Origin: Salipiger sp. IMCC34102
GTDB taxonomy: Bacteria; Pseudomonadota; Alphaproteobacteria; Rhodobacterales; Rhodobacteraceae
Direction of reading: 5' to 3'
NCBI RefSeq assembly: GCF_004145405.1
Contig: NZ_SELQ01000001.1
Coordinates: 372,001-436,000 of the forward strand
Length of the DNA: 64,000 nt
A program made the position numbers and the translations under genes. The notes under the pieces are model-generated. The model had not been told where the DNA came from and searched no databases. It saw only the letters and a program-made list of their open reading frames with translations. Positions 48,307-63,478 of this stretch are shown here, piece after piece. Every line of letters begins with the position of its first letter. Position 1 is the stretch's first letter.

Positions 48307-50940
48307 ATGACCGAGACCGTCACGCCGATGATGGCCCAGTACCTGGAGCTGAAGGCGCAGTACCAGGATGCCATCCTGTTCTACCGGATGGGCGATTTCT
48401 ACGAGATGTTCTTCGACGACGCGGTGCAGGCGGCCGCGGCGCTCGACATCGCGCTCACCAAGCGCGGCAAGCACGACGGTGCCGACATTCCCATGTGCGG
48501 CGTGCCGGCGCACTCGGCGGAAAGCTACCTTCTGACGCTGATCCGCAAGGGCTTTCGCGTCGCGGTCTGCGAACAGATGGAAAGCCCGGCGGAGGCCAAG
48601 AAGCGCGGCCACAAGGCGGTCGTGAAACGCGACGTGGTGCGGCTGGTCACCCCCGGCACCCTGACGGAAGACAGCCTTCTGGACGCCCGGCGGCACAACT
48701 TCCTGGCGGCCCTGGGGCGGGTGCGCGACGAGGTGGCCCTCGCCTGGGTCGACATTTCCACTGGGGTGATGCGGGTGATGCGATGTCCGGTGGTGGCGCT
48801 GGCGCCCGAACTGGCGCGGCTCGCCCCGAAGGAGGTGCTTGTCGCCGACGGGGACGAGGCCGATTTCCGCCCGCTGATCGAGGACGCGGGTGCGCATCTG
48901 ACCACGCTCGGCCGCGCCGCCTTCGACAGCACGGGGGGCGAGAAACGGCTCTGCGACTTGTTTCACGTGAAATCGCTCGACGCTTTCGGCAGTTTCGGCC
49001 GGGCCGAGATCGCGGCCCTCGCCGGGATCACCGAGTACCTCGAGATCACGCAGAAGGGCCAACTGCCCTTGCTGCGCCCGCCGGTGCTGGAAAGCCGCGC
49101 GGCCCTCATGCAGATCGACGCCGCGACCCGCCGCTCATTGGAGCTGACCCAAGCGATGGCGGGGGGCCGTGCAGGATCCCTGCTGGACGCGGTGGACCGG
49201 ACGGTGACGGCGGCGGGCGCGCGGCTTTTGGAACGCAGACTCTCCGCCCCGTCACGGCAGCTCGACGTGATCGCGCGCCGGCAGGACGCGGTGGGTGCCC
49301 TGCACGACGATCCGACCCTGACCGAGGATATCCGCGATCACCTGCGCGGGATCCACGACCTCGACCGCGCGCTCTCGCGTCTCGCGTTGGAACGGGGCGG
49401 CCCGCGCGACCTCGCCGCGGTGCGCAACACGATCGAACATGCCCGGCGTCTGTACGAGACGCTGAACCGCGGCGACCTGCCCGATCTTCTGTCGGAGGCG
49501 CAGGCCGCCCTCGCCGGTCACGAGGCGGTCCACGACCTGCTGGACGCCGCCCTGATCGCCGACCCGCCGCTGCTGGCCCGCGACGGCGGCTACATCGCTC
49601 CGGGTTTCGATGCCGACCTCGACGAGGCCCGCAAGCTGCGCGACGAAGGCCGCGGCGTGATCGCGGGCATGCAGGCGGAGTTCGTCGAGGTGACCGGCAT
49701 CAATGCGCTGAAGATAAAGCATAACAACGTGCTGGGCTACTTCATCGAGGTCACCTCGACCCATGCCGAGCGCATGTTGGCCCCGCCCCTGTCGGACACC
49801 TTCATCCACCGCCAGACGACCGCCAATCAGGTCCGTTTCACGACCGTCGAGCTGAACGAGATCGAAAGCCGGATCCTGAACGCGGGCTCCGAGGCTCTGG
49901 AGATCGAGAAGCGGCTCTTTGCGCAGCTGACCGAGTCGGTCCTGGCCGAACAGGCGGCCTTGGGCCAGTTGTCGCGCGCGCTTGCGGAATGCGACCTCGC
50001 AGCGAGCCTCGCCCATCTCGCGCGGCAGGACGGCTGGACCCGGCCCGAGATCGACGACAGCCGGGCATTTGCCATCGACGGCGGCCGTCACCCGGTGGTC
50101 GAGGCGGCGCTGTCCCGCGCGGGTCAGCCCTTCGTCGCCAACGGCTGCGATTTGACGGAGACGCCGATCTGGCTGCTCACCGGGCCCAACATGGCCGGCA
50201 AATCGACCTACCTGCGCCAGAACGCATTGATCGCCGTGCTGGCGCAGATGGGTGCCTTCGTCCCGGCGGAACGGGCGCATGTCGGCGTCGTCAGCCAGAT
50301 CTTCAGCCGGGTGGGCGCCTCCGACGACCTCGCCCGGGGCCGTTCGACCTTCATGGTCGAGATGGTCGAGACGGCGGCGATCCTGAACCAGGCCGACGAC
50401 CGCGCTCTGGTGATCCTCGACGAGATCGGGCGCGGCACCGCGACCTACGACGGTCTCTCCATCGCCTGGGCGACGCTGGAGCACCTGCACGATGTGAACC
50501 GCTGCCGCGCGCTTTTCGCGACGCATTACCACGAGATGAGCAGCCTCTCCGCCAAGCTCGACGGTGTCGACAATGCGACGGTCAGCGTGAAGGAATGGGA
50601 CGGCGACGTGATCTTCCTGCACGAGGTCAAGAAAGGCACCGCCGATCGCAGCTACGGTGTGCAGGTCGCCCGCCTCGCGGGCCTGCCCCCCGCCGTCGTC
50701 GCCCGCGCCAAGGTCGTGCTCGACGCGCTGGAAAAAGGCGAACGCGAAGGAGGCGCGGCCCGCAAGGCCGTCATCGACGACCTGCCACTCTTCGCGGCCA
50801 CGCCGCCGCCCGCCCCGTCCCCTGCGAAACGCTCCGCCGTCGAGGACCGCTTGCGCGACATCCACCCCGACGAGTTGACGGCCCGCGATGCACTGAACCT
50901 TCTCTACGACCTGAAAGACCTCGCGCAGTCTTCCGACTGA
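48307..50940 (+). CDS. mutS: DNA mismatch repair protein MutS
   Basis: 877 residues. The mismatch-binding N-terminal domain has RMGDFYEMFFDDA (about 22-33), then connector, lever and clamp domains, and the C-terminal ATPase with Walker A GPNMAGKSTYLRQ (from residue 626), FMVEMVETAAIL, Walker B LDEIGRGTATYDGLS and a helix-turn-helix. The ATG at 48307 was favoured because GAGGGAG lies at the right distance; the ATG at 48301 sits too close. Codons for FHVKS contain a parS-like sequence (48959-48974). Confidence 0.97.
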   Translation: MTETVTPMMAQYLELKAQYQDAILFYRMGDFYEMFFDDAVQAAAALDIALTKRGKHDGADIPMCGVPAHSAESYLLTLIRKGFRVAVCEQMESPAEAKKRGHKAVVKRDVVRLVTPGTLTEDSLLDARRHNFLAALGRVRDEVALAWVDISTGVMRVMRCPVVALAPELARLAPKEVLVADGDEADFRPLIEDAGAHLTTLGRAAFDSTGGEKRLCDLFHVKSLDAFGSFGRAEIAALAGITEYLEITQKGQLPLLRPPVLESRAALMQIDAATRRSLELTQAMAGGRAGSLLDAVDRTVTAAGARLLERRLSAPSRQLDVIARRQDAVGALHDDPTLTEDIRDHLRGIHDLDRALSRLALERGGPRDLAAVRNTIEHARRLYETLNRGDLPDLLSEAQAALAGHEAVHDLLDAALIADPPLLARDGGYIAPGFDADLDEARKLRDEGRGVIAGMQAEFVEVTGINALKIKHNNVLGYFIEVTSTHAERMLAPPLSDTFIHRQTTANQVRFTTVELNEIESRILNAGSEALEIEKRLFAQLTESVLAEQAALGQLSRALAECDLAASLAHLARQDGWTRPEIDDSRAFAIDGGRHPVVEAALSRAGQPFVANGCDLTETPIWLLTGPNMAGKSTYLRQNALIAVLAQMGAFVPAERAHVGVVSQIFSRVGASDDLARGRSTFMVEMVETAAILNQADDRALVILDEIGRGTATYDGLSIAWATLEHLHDVNRCRALFATHYHEMSSLSAKLDGVDNATVSVKEWDGDVIFLHEVKKGTADRSYGVQVARLAGLPPAVVARAKVVLDALEKGEREGGAARKAVIDDLPLFAATPPPAPSPAKRSAVEDRLRDIHPDELTARDALNLLYDLKDLAQSSD
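48959..48974. promoter_or_regulatory. parS-like site inside mutS
   Basis: TGTTTCACGTGAAATC matches the 16-bp parS consensus at 14 positions; the central 12-bp palindrome TTTCACGTGAAA is perfect and only the last two bases differ. It is 7-8 kb from parAB. The only other places with this 12-mer that I found are the two perfect parS sites. Confidence 0.65.
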
Positions 50941-52692: not shown

Positions 52693-52701
52693 TTATCCAC
52701 A
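52693..52701 (+). promoter_or_regulatory. Consensus DnaA box between hrcA and rph
   Basis: TTATCCACA is an exact match to the DnaA box consensus, placed in the 101-base divergent gap, 49 bases before hrcA and 45 bases before rph. It could let DnaA influence either gene. A single 9-mer match can occur by chance. Confidence 0.45.
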
Positions 52702-55205: not shown

Positions 55206-56090
55206 TCAGGACCCACCCAGCATCCGCATCAGGTCATCCAACTGGCCCAGGTCGCGGTATTGCACCGTGACCTTGCCACCTTCCTGTCCTGCGGTGTGAT
55301 CGATGGAAACCTGCATCCCCGTACTGGCCGACAACTCTCGTTCGAGGGCGACGGTATCGGGATCCTTGACCGGCTTCGACCGGGACGACCCGCGGGAGGT
55401 CTTCTCCGGCGTTTTCACCAGTTTCTCGGCCGCGCGAACGGAAAGTCCTTTGCTGATGATCTGCTTGGCGAGATCCGTCGCCTTGTCATGCCCGATGAGC
55501 GTGCGCGCGTGGCCGGCGCTCAACTTGCCTTCGGCCAGCCATTCCAGAACGTCCTCGGGGAGGTTCAGCAGGCGCATCTGGTTCGCGATATGGCTGCGGC
55601 TTTTACCCAAGGCCGATGCTAACTGGTCCTGCGTATGACCGAACCGATCCATCAACTGCCGATAGCCGGTCGCCTCGTCCACCGGATTGAGGTCGGCACG
55701 CTGAATGTTCTCGATGATTGCGATTTCGAGGACCTCGGTGTCGTCGAACTCTCGCACGAGAACCGGAATATCGTGCTTGCGCGCGATCTGGGAAGCCCGC
55801 CAGCGGCGCTCGCCCGCGACGATCTGATAGTCGTCCTCGCTTCCCGGAAGACGCCGAACGATCAGCGGCTGGATCACGCCCTTCTCGGAGATGCTGGCGG
55901 CGAGGTCCTGCAACGCCTGCTCGTCGAACCTGCGACGAGGCTGATCGGGATTGGGGTGTACGCGCTCGATTGGAACGACGAGATCGGGGGTCGGCCGCTG
56001 CGTCTCGGTCACGGGCTCCGGTTGATGCACATCGGACATCAGCGCGGACAGGCCGCGGCCCAGCCCACGGGATTTGGGAGGTTGCGACAT
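55206..56090 (-). CDS. parB: Chromosome partitioning protein ParB
   Basis: 294 residues. A CTPase that loads at parS and spreads along DNA to organise the origin. N-terminal RGLGRGLSAL; CTP-binding/ParB-Srx region with VPIERVHPNPDQPRRRF and AGERRWRASQIA; central helix-turn-helix (TQDQLASALGKSRSHIANQMRLLNLP) that reads parS; C-terminal dimerisation domain. Its ATG shares one base with the parA stop. parS sites lie in rsmG and mnmG just upstream. Confidence 0.97.
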   Translation of the reverse strand: MSQPPKSRGLGRGLSALMSDVHQPEPVTETQRPTPDLVVPIERVHPNPDQPRRRFDEQALQDLAASISEKGVIQPLIVRRLPGSEDDYQIVAGERRWRASQIARKHDIPVLVREFDDTEVLEIAIIENIQRADLNPVDEATGYRQLMDRFGHTQDQLASALGKSRSHIANQMRLLNLPEDVLEWLAEGKLSAGHARTLIGHDKATDLAKQIISKGLSVRAAEKLVKTPEKTSRGSSRSKPVKDPDTVALERELSASTGMQVSIDHTAGQEGGKVTVQYRDLGQLDDLMRMLGGS

Positions 56091-56908
56091 CAGCTGGCCT
56101 TTCGCAGAGAGGGTTTCGTTTTCGACAGGATTTCCGCTGCAAGCGCGCGATACGCCAAGCTACCCGCGGACTGGCTGTCATAAGACAGGGCCGGCATCGC
56201 GTAGGACGGCGCCTCGGACAGGCGGACGTTGCGGGGAATGACCGTCTTGAAGACGAGATCGCCCAGGTTATCCCGGGCGTCGGCTTCAACCTGTTGAGAC
56301 AGGTTGTTTCGGCGGTCGTACATCGTCAGAACGATACCCTCAATCCGCAAATTTTTGTTCGCGTTCTGCCGAACCTCCCGGATCGTCAGCATGAGCTGCG
56401 ACAATCCTTCGAGCGCGAAGAATTCGCTTTGCAGCGGCACGACGACGGAATGGGAGGCCACCATGGCATTCACCGTCAAGATATTGAGCGACGGCGGGCA
56501 ATCGATCAGGATATAGTCCAACCCAAGGTCATCCATCGACAATTGCCGCAGGGCATCGTGCAGGAGATAACTCCGCTTTTCGTTCGAGATCAATTCGATG
56601 TCTGCAGAGCTGAGATCCGTGGTCGCGGGAATGAGCGTGAGATTTTCGAAGTCGGTTTTCTGAATCGCCGCCTCTGGAGACGCATCGCCCAAAAGGAAGT
56701 CATAGGTGGTAACCGCGCGATCATGGCTGGAAATACCGAGGCCGGTCGATGCGTTCCCTTGGGGATCTAGGTCGATCAAAAGCACCTTCTGCCCCTGCTC
56801 GGCCAAGGCCGCGCCAAGGTTGATCGTCGTCGTGGTCTTGCCCACCCCACCCTTCTGATTAGCGACCGCGATGATCCGCGTACGGGATTTAGCTTCGGAG
56901 GTTCCCAC
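56090..56908 (-). CDS. parA: Chromosome partitioning ATPase ParA
   Basis: 272 residues. The Walker-type ATPase that moves ParB-parS complexes. Deviant Walker A KGGVGKTT at residues 19-26, Walker A' LLIDLDPQGNASTG and YILIDCPPSLN. The start chosen is GTG at 56908, which has AAGGA exactly 8 bases upstream and overlaps the rsmG stop by 20 bases; TTG at 56929 is less likely. Confidence 0.96.
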   Translation of the reverse strand: MGTSEAKSRTRIIAVANQKGGVGKTTTTINLGAALAEQGQKVLLIDLDPQGNASTGLGISSHDRAVTTYDFLLGDASPEAAIQKTDFENLTLIPATTDLSSADIELISNEKRSYLLHDALRQLSMDDLGLDYILIDCPPSLNILTVNAMVASHSVVVPLQSEFFALEGLSQLMLTIREVRQNANKNLRIEGIVLTMYDRRNNLSQQVEADARDNLGDLVFKTVIPRNVRLSEAPSYAMPALSYDSQSAGSLAYRALAAEILSKTKPSLRKAS

Positions 56909-57515
56909 GGATGATGTCCTTGATGACAAGAATGCGAGCGTCAGGTTGTGTCAAACTTTGAACGGCGTGGCAAGTGAACTGCCAGGTCTCACGAGCGGTT
57001 TCCAGCTCTTCGGATGCCGTGCGGCCCTTGGGAAAAATGGCAGTACCGCCGGCTTTCAGTAGCGGTTCCGAGTGCGCAAGCAGGTCTGTCAATGGCGCAA
57101 GCGCCCTGGCCGTCACGATCTCCGCTGGATCGAGAAAGACCTCTTCGATCCGAACGGCGTGAATCGAAGCATTCAGTTTCAGTTCTCGAATGACGGTCCG
57201 CAAAAAAGCGGCCTTTCTCTGATCGCTCTCGACAAGGTTAATTCTTCGGTGCGGTGCATAATATTTCGCATGAATTGCCAGAACCAATCCCGGTAAGCCG
57301 CCTCCGCTGCCGATATCCGTAATCAGTGATGCGTCCTTTGAAATAAGCGGTGCTATCTGTAAGCTATCTAGGATATGACGCTCCCAGAGCTCATCAAGCT
57401 GACTGCTGGCAACCAGGTTGATCCGCTTAGTCCATTTTGTCAGTAAGTCTTCATAGGCACGCAGATCGTCCCATGTTTCACGTGAAACATCTTTGAAAGC
57501 GGGATTAGCCTGCAT
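56889..57515 (-). CDS. rsmG: 16S rRNA m7G527 methyltransferase RsmG (GidB)
   Basis: 208 residues. It methylates G527 of 16S rRNA. The N-terminal FKDVSRETWDDLRAYEDLL includes VSRET, encoded by a perfect parS site. The SAM motif is DIGSGGGLPGLVLA at about residue 65. It overlaps mnmG by 11 bases and parA by 20 bases. Its DNA is lower in GC (about 50% in the stretch 57181-57420) than the rest of the window. Confidence 0.96.
   Translation of the reverse strand: MQANPAFKDVSRETWDDLRAYEDLLTKWTKRINLVASSQLDELWERHILDSLQIAPLISKDASLITDIGSGGGLPGLVLAIHAKYYAPHRRINLVESDQRKAAFLRTVIRELKLNASIHAVRIEEVFLDPAEIVTARALAPLTDLLAHSEPLLKAGGTAIFPKGRTASEELETARETWQFTCHAVQSLTQPDARILVIKDIIRGNLRS
57474..57489. promoter_or_regulatory. 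parS site 1, inside rsmG
   Basis: TGTTTCACGTGAAACA is an exact copy of the 16-bp parS consensus to which ParB binds. It lies near the rsmG start and encodes VSRET in that gene. It is about 1.4 kb from parB. Confidence 0.92.
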
Positions 57516-59373
57516 GAGCCCGTCGATCTTTTTTCACCGACGCCCGTATGAGTAAGAGAGCCGCCGGTGTCATACCTTCAATTCGGGAAACTTCGTACAT
57601 CGAGCGCGGCTTGGCGCGCGCAATCTTCGACTTCAACTCGTTCGAAAGCCCGGACAACACGTCGTAGTTGAAGTCATGAGGAACGGGCTCGTTCTCCAAG
57701 GCCTGCAATGCAGCAGCATCGCGTTGCTGACGTTCCGCATAGGTGGCATAAAGCGCATCATTGCGAAGCTGCTCACCGATAGCGTTGGGGATCGATGCCG
57801 TTTCGGATACGAGTTCCCGTATAATTTTGAACGACATATCAGCCAAAGTTAAAGCATCAGCCGCCGAGCGCGTGGGTGCTGACCTATTCAAGCGCACGCC
57901 GCGATCCGCAAGCTTCTCGGCCGGTATCATCGACTTCGACAGCAGCGCCTGGCCAGCTTCGATTTGATCACGTTTTGCGGTGAAGGCATCCCATCTTTCG
58001 TCCGAGACTAGCCCAATGGTTCGGCCAATCGGGGTCAACCGACGGTCTGCATTATCCGCCCGCAGGAGCAATCTATACTCCGCCCGGGATGTGAACATCC
58101 GATATGGTTCGGTGACACCCATCTTCGTCAGATCGTCATTCATTACGCCTAAATAGCTGTCAGTCCGGCTGAAGATGTACGGTTCCTGCCGCTTCACCTT
58201 CCGGGCCGCGTTCAATCCGGCCACCAAACCTTGGCCGGCCGCTTCTTCGTAGCCCGTCGTGCCGTTGATCTGCCCTGCGAGATAGAGGTTCGGACAGGCC
58301 TTCAACGAAAAGTCAGCGTGCAAGGCCCTGGGATCGATATAGTCATACTCGATCGCGTAGCCGGGCTGCAGGATCTTGGCGTCTTCCAAGCCCTTCATGG
58401 AATGCACGTAATCGTTTTGGACGTCCTCCGGCAGAGAGGTCGAAATACCGTTCGGATAGACCACATCACTGTTCAGACCTTCCGGCTCCAGGAACACCAA
58501 ATGCGAGTCCTTGTCCGCGAAACGCGTGACCTTGTCTTCGATGGATGGGCAATACCGCGGTCCCACCCCATCGATATGGCCCCCATACATCGCAGAACGA
58601 GAAAGGTTGGCGACAATGATCTCGTGCGTCCGGGAATTGGTCTCCGTGACGCCGCACGCGATCTGTTTGGCGCCTGGCTCTGTCGAGAGGAAGGAGAACA
58701 GCGAGGGCTCCTCGTCCGCCTCCTGTCGTCCTACAGCATTCCAGTCGATCGAGGACGACGCCAAGCGCGGTGGCGTGCCGGTCTTGAGGCGACCGATGGG
58801 AAGATCCATGCCGCGGAGCTGTTGCGCCATCTCGGTCGATGCTGCGGCGCCGATCCGTCCACCCGGAAGCTGCCGATCACCGATGTGGATAACGCCGCCG
58901 AGGAAGGTTCCGGTGGTCAAGACGACCGTCGCCGCGTGCATTTCTTCAGACGCGGTCCGAATACCGCAAACGACATCCCCATCGAACAGCAGCCCGGTGA
59001 CCTCACCTTCTATCAAGGTCAGGTTGTCCTGTTCTGCAACAATTTGCTGCATCGCCTGCTGATAAAGCGCGCGATCCGATTGCGTTCTGGGTCCGCGTAC
59101 GGCGGGCCCTTTCGTTCGATTGAGCAACCGAAACTGGATGCCGGACGCATCGGCGGCCAACCCCATGGCTCCGCCTAGGGCGTCGATTTCTCGCACCAAA
59201 TGCCCTTTACCCAACCCGCCGATTGCGGGGTTGCAGGACATTACACCGATATCCGACGCCTTCATCGTGACAAGCGCCGCGGTGCAACCAGTCCGAGCGC
59301 TTGCCAAGGCGGCCTCGCAGCCAGCATGGCCAGCGCCGATAACGATGACTTCAAAATGTTTCACGTGAAACAC
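57505..59373 (-). CDS. mnmG: tRNA uridine 5-carboxymethylaminomethyl modification enzyme MnmG (GidA)
   Basis: 622 residues. A FAD enzyme that modifies the wobble uridine of tRNAs with MnmE. The dinucleotide-binding motif VIGAGHAGCEAALASAR is near the start; later motifs include CNPAIGGLGKGHLVREIDALGG, TGTFLGGVIHIGDRQLPGGR, and INGTTGYEEAAGQGLVAGLNA. It starts with GTG at 59373, directly after the mnmE TAG. The first codons (FHVKH) carry parS site 2. Confidence 0.97.
   Translation of the reverse strand: MFHVKHFEVIVIGAGHAGCEAALASARTGCTAALVTMKASDIGVMSCNPAIGGLGKGHLVREIDALGGAMGLAADASGIQFRLLNRTKGPAVRGPRTQSDRALYQQAMQQIVAEQDNLTLIEGEVTGLLFDGDVVCGIRTASEEMHAATVVLTTGTFLGGVIHIGDRQLPGGRIGAAASTEMAQQLRGMDLPIGRLKTGTPPRLASSSIDWNAVGRQEADEEPSLFSFLSTEPGAKQIACGVTETNSRTHEIIVANLSRSAMYGGHIDGVGPRYCPSIEDKVTRFADKDSHLVFLEPEGLNSDVVYPNGISTSLPEDVQNDYVHSMKGLEDAKILQPGYAIEYDYIDPRALHADFSLKACPNLYLAGQINGTTGYEEAAGQGLVAGLNAARKVKRQEPYIFSRTDSYLGVMNDDLTKMGVTEPYRMFTSRAEYRLLLRADNADRRLTPIGRTIGLVSDERWDAFTAKRDQIEAGQALLSKSMIPAEKLADRGVRLNRSAPTRSAADALTLADMSFKIIRELVSETASIPNAIGEQLRNDALYATYAERQQRDAAALQALENEPVPHDFNYDVLSGLSNELKSKIARAKPRSMYEVSRIEGMTPAALLLIRASVKKDRRAHAG
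59357..59372. promoter_or_regulatory. parS site 2, mnmE/mnmG junction
   Basis: TGTTTCACGTGAAACA, a second perfect parS. It spans the first codons of mnmG, 2 bases past the mnmE stop. The two sites are 1.88 kb apart. Confidence 0.92.
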
Positions 59374-60646: not shown

Positions 60647-61921
60647 TCAGGTGTTCATCGAGTCGAAGAAATCGGTGTTCGTCTTCGTCTGCTTGAGCTT
60701 GCCGATCAGGAACTCGATCGCGTCCGTGGTTCCCATCGGGTTCAGAATCCGCCGGAGGACGTAAGTCTTTTGCAGGTCTACCTTTTCCACCAGAAGCTCT
60801 TCCTTCCGGGTGCCGGACTTCAGGATATCCATGGCCGGGAAGACCCGCTTGTCGGCCACCTTGCGGTCGAGCACGATCTCGGAGTTGCCGGTGCCCTTGA
60901 ATTCCTCGAAGATGACCTCGTCCATGCGGCTGCCGGTGTCGATCAGCGCGGTCGCGATGATGGTCAGCGAACCACCCTCCTCGATGTTCCGCGCCGCACC
61001 GAAGAACCGCTTGGGCCGTTGCAGGGCATTGGCGTCGACACCCCCCGTCAGCACCTTGCCCGAGGACGGAACGGTCGTGTTGTAGGCCCGGCCCAGGCGG
61101 GTGATCGAATCGAGCAGGATCACCACGTCGCGCTTGTGTTCCACGAGGCGTTTGGCCTTCTCGATCACCATTTCGGAGACGGCCACGTGGCGGGTCGCGG
61201 GTTCATCAAAGGTCGAGGAGACGACCTCACCCTTCACGGACCGCTGCATGTCGGTGACTTCCTCGGGGCGTTCGTCGATCAGCAGAACGATCAGGTAGCA
61301 CTCGGGGTGGTTCTGTTCGATCGAATGGGCGATGTTCTGCAAGAGCACCGTCTTGCCGGTCCGCGGCGGGGCGACGATCAGCGACCGCTGGCCCTTCCCG
61401 ATTGGCGAGACGAGGTCGATGATCCGCGCCGACCGGTCCTTCTTGTCGTGCTCGGAATCGACTTCCATCTTCAGCCGCTGGTCGGGATAGAGCGGCGTGA
61501 GGTTGTCGAAGGCGACCTTGTGCTTGGTCTTGATCGGGTCCTCGAAATTGATCTTCTCGACCGTCTGCAGCGCGAAGTAGCGTTCGTTGTCGTTGGGCTC
61601 CTTCATGGTCCCTTCGACGGTGTCCCCGGTGCGCAAGGAGTGCTGACGGATCATTTCGGGCGAGACGTAGATGTCGTCGGGACCGGGCAGGTAGTTGGCT
61701 TCCGGCGAGCGCAGGAAGCCGAATCCGTCCTGCAGCACCTCGAGCACGCCGTCGCCGCCGATCAGCCATTCCTCATCGGCCCGTTCGCGCAGGATCGCGA
61801 ACATCATATCGCCTTTGCGCATGGTGCTGGCGTTCTCGATCTCCATTTCCTCGGCCATGGTGACGAGGTCCTTCGGGCTCAACGCCTTCAGGTCGGCAAG
61901 ATTCAGACGGTGGTCGGACAT
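60647..61921 (-). CDS. rho: Transcription termination factor Rho
   Basis: 424 residues. The hexameric RNA helicase. N-terminal helices and cold-shock RNA-binding domain (about 50-120, including DGFGFLRS and [18 protein letters not shown]), then ATPase with [12 protein letters not shown] (about 185) and [16 protein letters not shown]. The sequence is complete. It is first of rho-mnmE-mnmG-rsmG-parA-parB after hemJ. Confidence 0.98.
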
Positions 61922-62034
61922 GAATGGTCTCCGCGCCCGGCGGACGGGCGGATAATCGGTTTGATCGGGAAAACGCGGATGCCCGGACGGGCGGCGATTG
62001 CGGGCCAGTTAAGCCTGCGCGACGTGGAAGTCAA

Positions 62035-62481
62035 TCAGAAGGGTTCGACCACCACCGCGATCACCGCCACGACCATCAGGAGTGTCGGCACCTCGTTGGC
62101 CATCCGGAAGGTCCGGCCGGAATAGGCATTCTCGCCCGCGGCGAAGGCCTTGCGGCACTTCGCCATCCATATGTGCGCCGCTGTCATGCCGATCACCGCC
62201 AGAAGCTTGGCCCAGCCCCAGACCGCTCCGAAGTCGAGGCCGCCGAGCCCGATCATCACCAGCCCGAAGATCCAGGCCGCGATCATCGCGGGGTTCATGA
62301 TGACCCTCAGCAGCTTCTCTTCCATGACCTGGAACGTGCGATCCATCTCGGACCCGACCGTGGCCTGCTCTGCATGATAGACGAAAAGCCTGGGAAGATA
62401 GAACAGACCGGCCATCCAGGCGATCACCGCCATGATGTGAAACGCCTTGATCCAGAAGTAGTACGGCGCAATCCAGTCCAT
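62035..62481 (-). CDS. hemJ: Protoporphyrinogen oxidase HemJ
   Basis: 148 residues, four predicted membrane helices. HemJ converts protoporphyrinogen IX to protoporphyrin IX, the step before HemH. The conserved His is in IKAFHIMAVIAWMAGLFYLPRLFVYHAE, with the second His/Lys set in MTAAHIWMAKCRKAF. It is typical of alphaproteobacteria lacking HemG/HemY. The gene borders the putative origin. Confidence 0.94.
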   Translation of the reverse strand: MDWIAPYYFWIKAFHIMAVIAWMAGLFYLPRLFVYHAEQATVGSEMDRTFQVMEEKLLRVIMNPAMIAAWIFGLVMIGLGGLDFGAVWGWAKLLAVIGMTAAHIWMAKCRKAFAAGENAYSGRTFRMANEVPTLLMVVAVIAVVVEPF

Positions 62482-62563
62482 GCTTTTCCCCAGCCCGGTT
62501 CTGGCCTCTCCTTAATTAAATATAAAAGAAAGAAAAGATGATGATGTAGGGCGTCCGAGAATC

Positions 62564-62572
62564 TGTGGACAA
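62564..62572 (-). promoter_or_regulatory. DnaA-box-like 9-mer 1
   Basis: TGTGGACAA on the plus strand is TTGTCCACA on the minus strand. It is one base from TTATCCACA. Confidence 0.6.
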
Positions 62573-62589
62573 TGAATTCGTCCCTACGG

Positions 62590-62598
62590 TTGTCCACA
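62590..62598 (+). promoter_or_regulatory. DnaA-box-like 9-mer 2
   Basis: TTGTCCACA, facing box 1 with 17 bases between them, so the two form an inverted pair. Confidence 0.6.
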
Positions 62599-62655
62599 GC
62601 GCGTTGCCGCGATTTCAAAGATAAACCTTCGGGATATCTTTGTGGAACCTATAAA

Positions 62656-62668
62656 TATCAATAACTTG
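62656..62668 (+). promoter_or_regulatory. IHF consensus site in the putative origin
   Basis: TATCAATAACTTG fits WATCAA-N4-TTR exactly. IHF bends DNA in many origins, including Caulobacter and E. coli. Confidence 0.5.
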
Positions 62669-62870
62669 AGTGCCTCATTCACCTTGAGGTTCCGAGCCTT
62701 CCGCCTTGACTCTGGGATCGCGGGACAGTTGCGCACAGGCCGATGTTATCCTTTCCCCATGTGATCTTTTCGCGTGAAACCGCGATTGTGTCCGCCCGTT
62801 CACGGCCCGTCCTGCGGGAGCTTCGGGCACACGCGACCGGCTTGACCTTCCCGATCAAAATGTCCCTGAC

Positions 62871-62879
62871 TTGTCCACA
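62871..62879 (+). promoter_or_regulatory. DnaA-box-like 9-mer 3, at the maf start
   Basis: TTGTCCACA ends on the first base of the maf ATG, so DnaA bound here could also affect maf. Confidence 0.5.
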
Positions 62880-63478
62880 TGACTGCCCCCCTGATCCTTG
62901 CCAGCGGCTCCACGATCCGCGCCGCCCTGCTGCGTAACGCCGGCGTCCCGTTCGAGGTGCAGGCCGCGCGTGTCGACGAAGACGCCGTGAAGGACGCGTT
63001 GAGGGGCGAGGCGGCGTCTCCCCGCGACGTCGCCGACGCCTTGGCGGAGCTGAAGGCCGCCAAGATCTCCGGTCGCAGGCCGGAGGCGCTGGTGCTGGGC
63101 TGCGACCAGGTGCTGGCCTTCGACGGTGGCCTTCTGTCGAAACCCCGCGATCCGGAAGAGGCGCTCGCGCAATTGAGTGCGATGCGGGGCAAGGTGCACC
63201 AGCTGCTTTCCGCCGCGGTGCTCTACGAGGGCGGTGCGCCGCAATGGCGGCACGTGGGCGTCGTGCGGCTGCACATGCGGGACGCCTCCGACGCCTTCCT
63301 GGAAGACTACGTCGCGCGCAACTGGGACGAAATTCGACATTGCGTCGGCGCCTACCAGATCGAGGCGGAAGGGGTGCGACTTTTTCATCGCATCGAGGGA
63401 AGTCTTTTCGACGTCCAGGGCCTGCCGCTGCTCGAACTCTTGTCATACCTGACCCTTCGGGGAACACTGCCGGCATGA
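62879..63478 (+). CDS. maf: Nucleoside triphosphate pyrophosphatase, Maf family
   Basis: 199 residues. Maf proteins hydrolyse non-canonical or modified nucleotides, mostly dTTP/UTP or m7GTP. Signatures: LILASGSTIRAALLRNAGVPF at the start, LGCDQVLAFDGGLLSKP with the catalytic Asp (about residue 76) and KVHQLLSAAVLY. The ATG lies just after a DnaA-like box and has no strong ribosome site. Its TGA overlaps the aroE ATG (ATGA). Confidence 0.92.
   Translation: MTAPLILASGSTIRAALLRNAGVPFEVQAARVDEDAVKDALRGEAASPRDVADALAELKAAKISGRRPEALVLGCDQVLAFDGGLLSKPRDPEEALAQLSAMRGKVHQLLSAAVLYEGGAPQWRHVGVVRLHMRDASDAFLEDYVARNWDEIRHCVGAYQIEAEGVRLFHRIEGSLFDVQGLPLLELLSYLTLRGTLPA

Follow-up and report, generated by a model that had tools for sequence, protein, structure and literature searches.

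A 397-bp gap separating hemJ and maf, divergent genes on the minus and the plus strand respectively, is very probably the chromosomal origin of replication (oriC) of this Loktanella-like bacterium, and lies at the place expected for an origin in Rhodobacteraceae. We put the probability of this assignment at roughly 93%, on the basis of a cluster of DnaA boxes, conservation among relatives, the nearby parS sites and parAB genes, and the polarity of the surrounding DNA. An oriC between hemJ and maf had already been proposed from the letters of the DNA alone (below, the sequence-only reading), and the proposal gained support from a flip in the orientation of KOPS-type motifs, parS sites within 5.2 kb, a hemJ-gap-maf layout found in 76 of 80 named relatives, conserved box-like motifs, and the published placement of origins beside maf, as given in the accessible text of PMC4793288.

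Genomic context of the predicted origin

The gap occupies positions 62482–62878 of the window, the 64,000-nucleotide stretch of DNA analysed here, and the predicted oriC extends to 62879 when its last DnaA box is included (62482–62879, drawn from the box cluster, low G+C, synteny and footprint). The host contig (C10) measures 865,052 bp and belongs to a draft genome of 3.58 Mb (3,575,432 bases in 46 contigs), for which the closest named relatives based on hemJ were, among the matches listed, mostly Loktanella. The gap is bordered on the left by hemJ (UPF0093; 62035–62481, minus strand, Pfam PF03653) and on the right by maf (62879–63478, plus strand, Pfam PF02545), while parB and parA are encoded on the minus strand at 55206–56929 (Pfam ParB_N/HTH_ParB and AAA_31). 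Of the neighbours named in the sequence-only reading, ParB, ParA, RsmG, MnmG, MnmE, Rho, HemJ (UPF0093) and Maf were each found to match their Pfam family, and the putative aroE beside maf is named as in that reading. The gap was described there as the only large non-coding space of the window; open frames of at least 60 codons cross parts of it. An Rfam scan of 61900–63000 returned a single weak match (E 0.55), far under its gathering score.

The dnaA gene is not adjacent to the gap, the best Bac_DnaA match being located on contig C43; a position of dnaA away from the origin is common in Alphaproteobacteria. The dnaA neighbourhood was considered as a rival origin and rejected, its 15 kb holding three one-mismatch boxes and no exact one. 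The usual landmarks of alphaproteobacterial origins are hemE and PPRP, and hemE and a PF03618 gene flank the Caulobacter Cori. Here, hemE is not found beside the gap (the single URO-D match of the genome is on contig C41) and PF03618, the pyruvate-phosphate-dikinase regulatory family, had no match in the whole genome, so the hemE-PPRP landmarks are of no help in this case.

A cluster of DnaA boxes

Three identical exact copies of TTGTCCACA had been claimed for the gap and were indeed found, at 62564–62572 (box 1, minus strand), 62590–62598 (box 2, plus strand) and 62871–62879 (plus strand, over the maf start codon), with boxes 1 and 2 forming the inverted exact pair that had also been claimed. 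The third box runs one base past the range first noted, 62482–62878, and ends on the A of the maf ATG. In the 3,575,432 bases of the genome TTGTCCACA occurs six times, three of these copies being within the about 400 bp of the gap, and among the 16 genome-wide sites of the degenerate word TTRTCCACA the hemJ-maf gap is the sole 400-bp stretch with three. When an exact box was scored as 3 and a one-mismatch box as 1, the gap was the top-scoring cluster of C10, with a score of 9 compared to 5 for the next separate cluster. To the right of the inverted pair, a weak box-like site, TTGCGCACA (62729–62737, plus strand), has six of nine columns invariant and reads TTGTGCACA in several relatives, and a W-box-like pair of half-boxes, TTATCC...TCCCC (62746–62758, plus strand), has eight of 13 columns invariant and the relatives' consensus TTATCCCGTCCAC.

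The boxes were compared across 76 gaps, comprising those of 75 named relatives and that of the window, with one gap of 2454 bp left out. Box 1 was found within one mismatch in 59 gaps and was absent from 17; its commonest words in the 75 named gaps were TAATCCACA (33), TAATCCCCA (4) and TGATCCACA (3). The box over the maf start was placed using start codons extrapolated from the alignment, which are ATG in 63 of the 75 named loci. In 55 of the 75 loci, a box with at most one mismatch to TTRTCCACA starts 8 nt ahead of the predicted maf start, in the same register as in the window; all 55 are among the 63 with ATG at that position, and the 12 non-ATG loci have none. Any other distance from the maf start, within 60 nt, occurred one to three times.

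Exact boxes were also found outside the gap. Two further exact sites, both TTATCCACA, lie at window positions 52693 and 58884 (C10:424693 and 430884), less than 10 kb from the origin, and five of the six exact TTRTCCACA sites of C10 fall inside one 10.2-kb stretch. The second-best separate cluster of the contig, C10:646585–646767, has one exact and two one-mismatch boxes, with a weak Bac_DnaA match about 2 kb away (C10:644353–644649). On C41, an exact inverted pair of TTATCCACA, 46 bp apart, is located directly upstream of a gene named nrdR-like by resemblance (L233, 1984–1992 and 2030–2038; C41:269484–269538), and is a candidate DnaA-controlled promoter. The remaining exact boxes are on C1 (45582), C5, C19, C41 (181925), C42, C43 and C44, and as isolated sites on C10.

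Base composition and putative unwinding, IHF and methylation sites

The AT-richness ascribed to the gap was borne out by a G+C content of 51.9%, a value as low as which was seen in only 1.07% of equal-sized windows of C10. An A-rich purine tract ending in GATGATGATG (62518–62546, plus strand) is proposed from its conservation to be the DNA-unwinding element; across nine Loktanella-like genomes, 18 of the 31 columns of 62521–62551 were invariant. The tract is followed by a TAG (62547–62549, plus strand) that precedes box 1 by 14 bp. For the wider set, spacings were counted in the 59 gaps with box 1, the 17 lacking it within one mismatch being left out. In 46 of the 59 gaps, a GATGAT was present within the 60 nt preceding box 1, compared to 1.9 expected from shuffled sequences. 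In 38, the TAG of the GATGATGAT...TAG element was located exactly 13 bp ahead of box 1, every other distance being used by at most eight gaps. A rival unwinding stretch is the 60 bp of lowest G+C in the gap (62612–62671, 30% G+C).

The exact IHF consensus reported in the sequence-only reading, WATCARNNNNTTR, occurs once in the gap (sequence match TATCAATAACTTG, 62656–62668, plus strand) and has 11 copies on the 865-kb contig, counting both strands; it was found in 18 of the 76 gaps, compared to 2.9 expected from shuffles. The GANTC sites it listed are likewise present, with two in the gap (62559 and 62708), where the contig averages 0.39 per 400 bp. The CcrM-type site GAATC (62559–62563) abuts box 1 and is invariant in the nine Loktanella-like sequences, while in the wider set a GANTC abuts box 1 in just six of 59 gaps. 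The other site, GACTC, is part of TTGACTC (62706–62712, plus strand), which also resembles a −35 element and is invariant in all nine Loktanella-like sequences.

Conservation of the locus among relatives

The four named relatives without the hemJ-gap-maf layout had no maf in reach. A second set of relatives was drawn from DNA matches in 57 of 101 genomes, and 30 of its loci (L052–L081) were looked at; the layout was present in 23 of these, including that of the genome itself, and the other seven had no maf in reach. As the named loci are related to one another, the counts of boxes, GATGAT and TAG given above do not represent independent events.

In the nine Loktanella-like genomes, eight from the genus of the window plus its own, conservation of the gap was poor outside a few short blocks. 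These comprise the A-rich tract with GATGATGATG, AGAATC together with box 1, box 2, TTGACTC, TTGTGCACA, TTATCCCGTCCAC, and TTATCCACATG over the maf start. Of the alignment columns, 64 of 97 were invariant inside the blocks, which were drawn after viewing the alignment, compared to 20 of 303 for the rest of the gap.

Replichore polarity, parS sites and alternative origin positions

The motif GGGNAGGG, which we take to be the KOPS consensus, changed its prevailing direction about the gap, with 21 forward and 61 reverse copies on the left and 88 forward and 25 reverse on the right (Fisher P 2.5e-13). FtsK is described in the accessible text of PMC7901474 as moving DNA along KOPS towards dif. The cumulative minimum of GGGNAGGG was located at 437483 on the contig, and an unbiased scan of every 8-mer present 40 times or more, allowing any change point and blind to the position of the gap, returned GGGCAGGG as the most polarised 8-mer with the same change point, 2.8 kb from the gap. 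In a two-segment model, whose posteriors assume one change point here and in the relatives below, the 95% posterior set of 433392–444401 includes the gap at 434680; the best interval, 437483–441255, received 74% of the posterior and the gap's own interval 5%.

The genome has two parS sites when up to one mismatch is allowed, both of them exact copies of TGTTTCACGTGAAACA beside parAB and 3.3 and 5.2 kb from the gap, one at the start of mnmG (59357–59372) and one inside rsmG (57474–57489). The same 16-mer bound ParB in Hyphomonas according to the available part of PMC6650430. A parS pair is present at the corresponding place in three relatives (G011, G058 and G005), one of the G005 sites having one mismatch. 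A third parS-like site of the window, with two mismatches, is found at 48959, 13.7 kb from the origin, and falls in a frame named mutS-like by resemblance.

The best KOPS interval is offset to the right, beginning 2.8 kb from the gap, which could be read to mean that the gap is merely a shared, DnaA-regulated promoter region of hemJ and maf and that the true origin is a few kb away, for instance at 437483–441255. DnaA boxes do occur at promoters too, as the inverted pair upstream of the nrdR-like gene on C41 illustrates. However, KOPS are spaced kilobases apart, which places an offset of 2.8 kb within their resolution, and no box cluster of comparable score was found elsewhere in 433–444 kb or on C10 as a whole. 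Furthermore, a promoter does not need an AT-rich tract whose distance to box 1 is fixed. We regard this explanation as improbable.

GC skew would draw the origin much further to the right, to the cumulative minimum at 541.5 kb of the contig, 107 kb from the gap, with 540 kb as its best single change point. Yet no 20-kb bin has a skew as large as 0.05 in size, and the gap falls inside the 95% change-point set of 220–620 kb, the signal being weak and derived from one of 46 contigs; GC skew therefore cannot place the origin. About the gap itself the mean skew changes from −0.0085 on the left to +0.0082 on the right (P 0.0006), with the sign expected of an origin. An origin near 541.5 kb is further opposed by KOPS that are mostly forward already from 441 kb, by the lack of a cluster of at least two boxes there among the clusters listed, and by the position of both parS sites at 429–431 kb, and is the most improbable of the positions considered. 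The hemJ-maf gap thus remains the preferred origin.

KOPS and skew were also analysed in the three relatives named above. In G005, from the same genus, the locus is inverted on its contig and KOPS still turn from reverse to forward nearby (10 forward and 28 reverse, then 19 and 4), with the best interval 6.5–9 kb to one side and 7% for the interval of the site itself; its GC skew did not change at the site (P 0.76). In G058 the KOPS counts were 4/33 and 31/19, with the best interval 16–18 kb from the orthologous site, and the best GC-skew change point was 200 kb, 9 kb from the site at 191 kb (95% set 110–240). No flip of KOPS was seen at the site in G011 (20/13 and 20/12), where the best GC-skew change point, 180 kb, is the 10-kb bin boundary nearest to the site at 180.65 kb (95% set 140–210). 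In each of the three genomes, one or both of the measures thus back the neighbourhood, and in two of the genomes the other measure fails, a result that is mixed and mostly supporting.

The plasmid-like contig C1 (77,692 bp) has a ParA-type gene (Pfam AAA_31) around 41–44 kb (L001), whose neighbour had no Pfam match at E 1e-8. As a control for KOPS polarity the contig is suggestive only, KOPS seeming to flip near the ParA-type gene (4/8 and 8/2), and the contig holds one TTGTCCACA, within a reading frame.

Comparison with known origins

In the accessible text of PMC4793288, the predicted origin of Ketogulonicigenium vulgare Hbe602 adjoins maf, and DoriC entries show an origin beside maf to be conserved in Rhodobacteraceae; 101 origins of this family have been curated by means of DnaA boxes, GC disparity, local GC minimum and parAB (PMC6699656, available part). 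The window resembles these origins in its position beside maf and near parAB, its DnaA boxes and its low G+C, and differs in that its box 1 is TTGTCCACA, whereas this box is TAATCCACA or TGATCCACA in 36 of the 75 named relatives.

The Cori of Caulobacter crescentus is described, in the parts of PMC4468827 and PMC4285127 available, as containing the G-box TGATCCACA, the W-box TCCCCA and CtrA sites. It shares with the window its membership in the Alphaproteobacteria and a parS within 8 kb, and some relatives of the window have the Caulobacter G-box or the W-box-like TCCCCA at the same positions. Unlike Cori, the gap of the window contains no CtrA site of the form TTAA-N7-TTAA; such sites were present in six of 76 gaps, compared to 1.2 expected in shuffles, and CtrA may thus have a role elsewhere in Rhodobacteraceae.

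The oriC of Escherichia coli (NC_000913.3) is similar in that a TGTGGATAA box has an AT-rich stretch on its left and is preceded by a TAG at a distance of 13 bp, and different in its AT-rich sequence, box arrangement and neighbours. The basal unwinding system has been defined as at least three NAN triplets within 16 bp of a box, 3'-GAT-5' being best (PMC8287927, accessible text). The window is comparable in having trinucleotide repeats by a DnaA box, and its TAG equals one 3'-GAT-5' unit near the usual distance. A strict DnaA-trio reading, made by eye against that definition as available, was rejected, since the repeats read 5'-GAT-3' and are 18 bp from the box, past the 16-bp limit, leaving one well-placed TAG only.

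Proposed mechanism and implications

From the features described above, we infer that DnaA and IHF bind the gap and at which place it unwinds, as well as any part played by GANTC methylation. ATP-bound DnaA would occupy boxes 1 and 2, the strong inverted pair, together with the weaker sites on the right, with IHF bending the DNA between the two groups. A DnaA filament would then grow leftwards from box 1, crossing the 14-bp spacer to reach the A-rich GATGATGATG stretch. This stretch would melt and receive the helicase, and replication would proceed bidirectionally from the gap. ParB on the two parS sites, 3–5 kb away, would draw the new origins apart.

A more specific hypothesis, which we put forward tentatively and consider unlikely, is twofold. 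The A-rich tract together with a GATGATGAT...TAG whose distance to box 1 is fixed at 13 bp would be an unwinding signal specific to the roseobacter family and other than the published DnaA-trio, and the box over the maf start (TTATCCACATG) would lock the right edge of the origin, so that DnaA bound at initiation would directly gate maf expression and tie replication to a protein linked to septum formation. Neither the fixed TAG spacing nor a box on the maf start codon was mentioned in the accessible text of a mainly open-access origin literature. These are the only details that may be unreported, the oriC site itself being ordinary for the family.

For this draft Loktanella-like genome, the analysis yields an origin with good support, along with a map of oriC elements compared across roseobacters. 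Should the fixed TAG spacing and the maf-start box prove functional, direct and testable predictions would follow on how such origins open and on whether initiation is coupled to maf expression.
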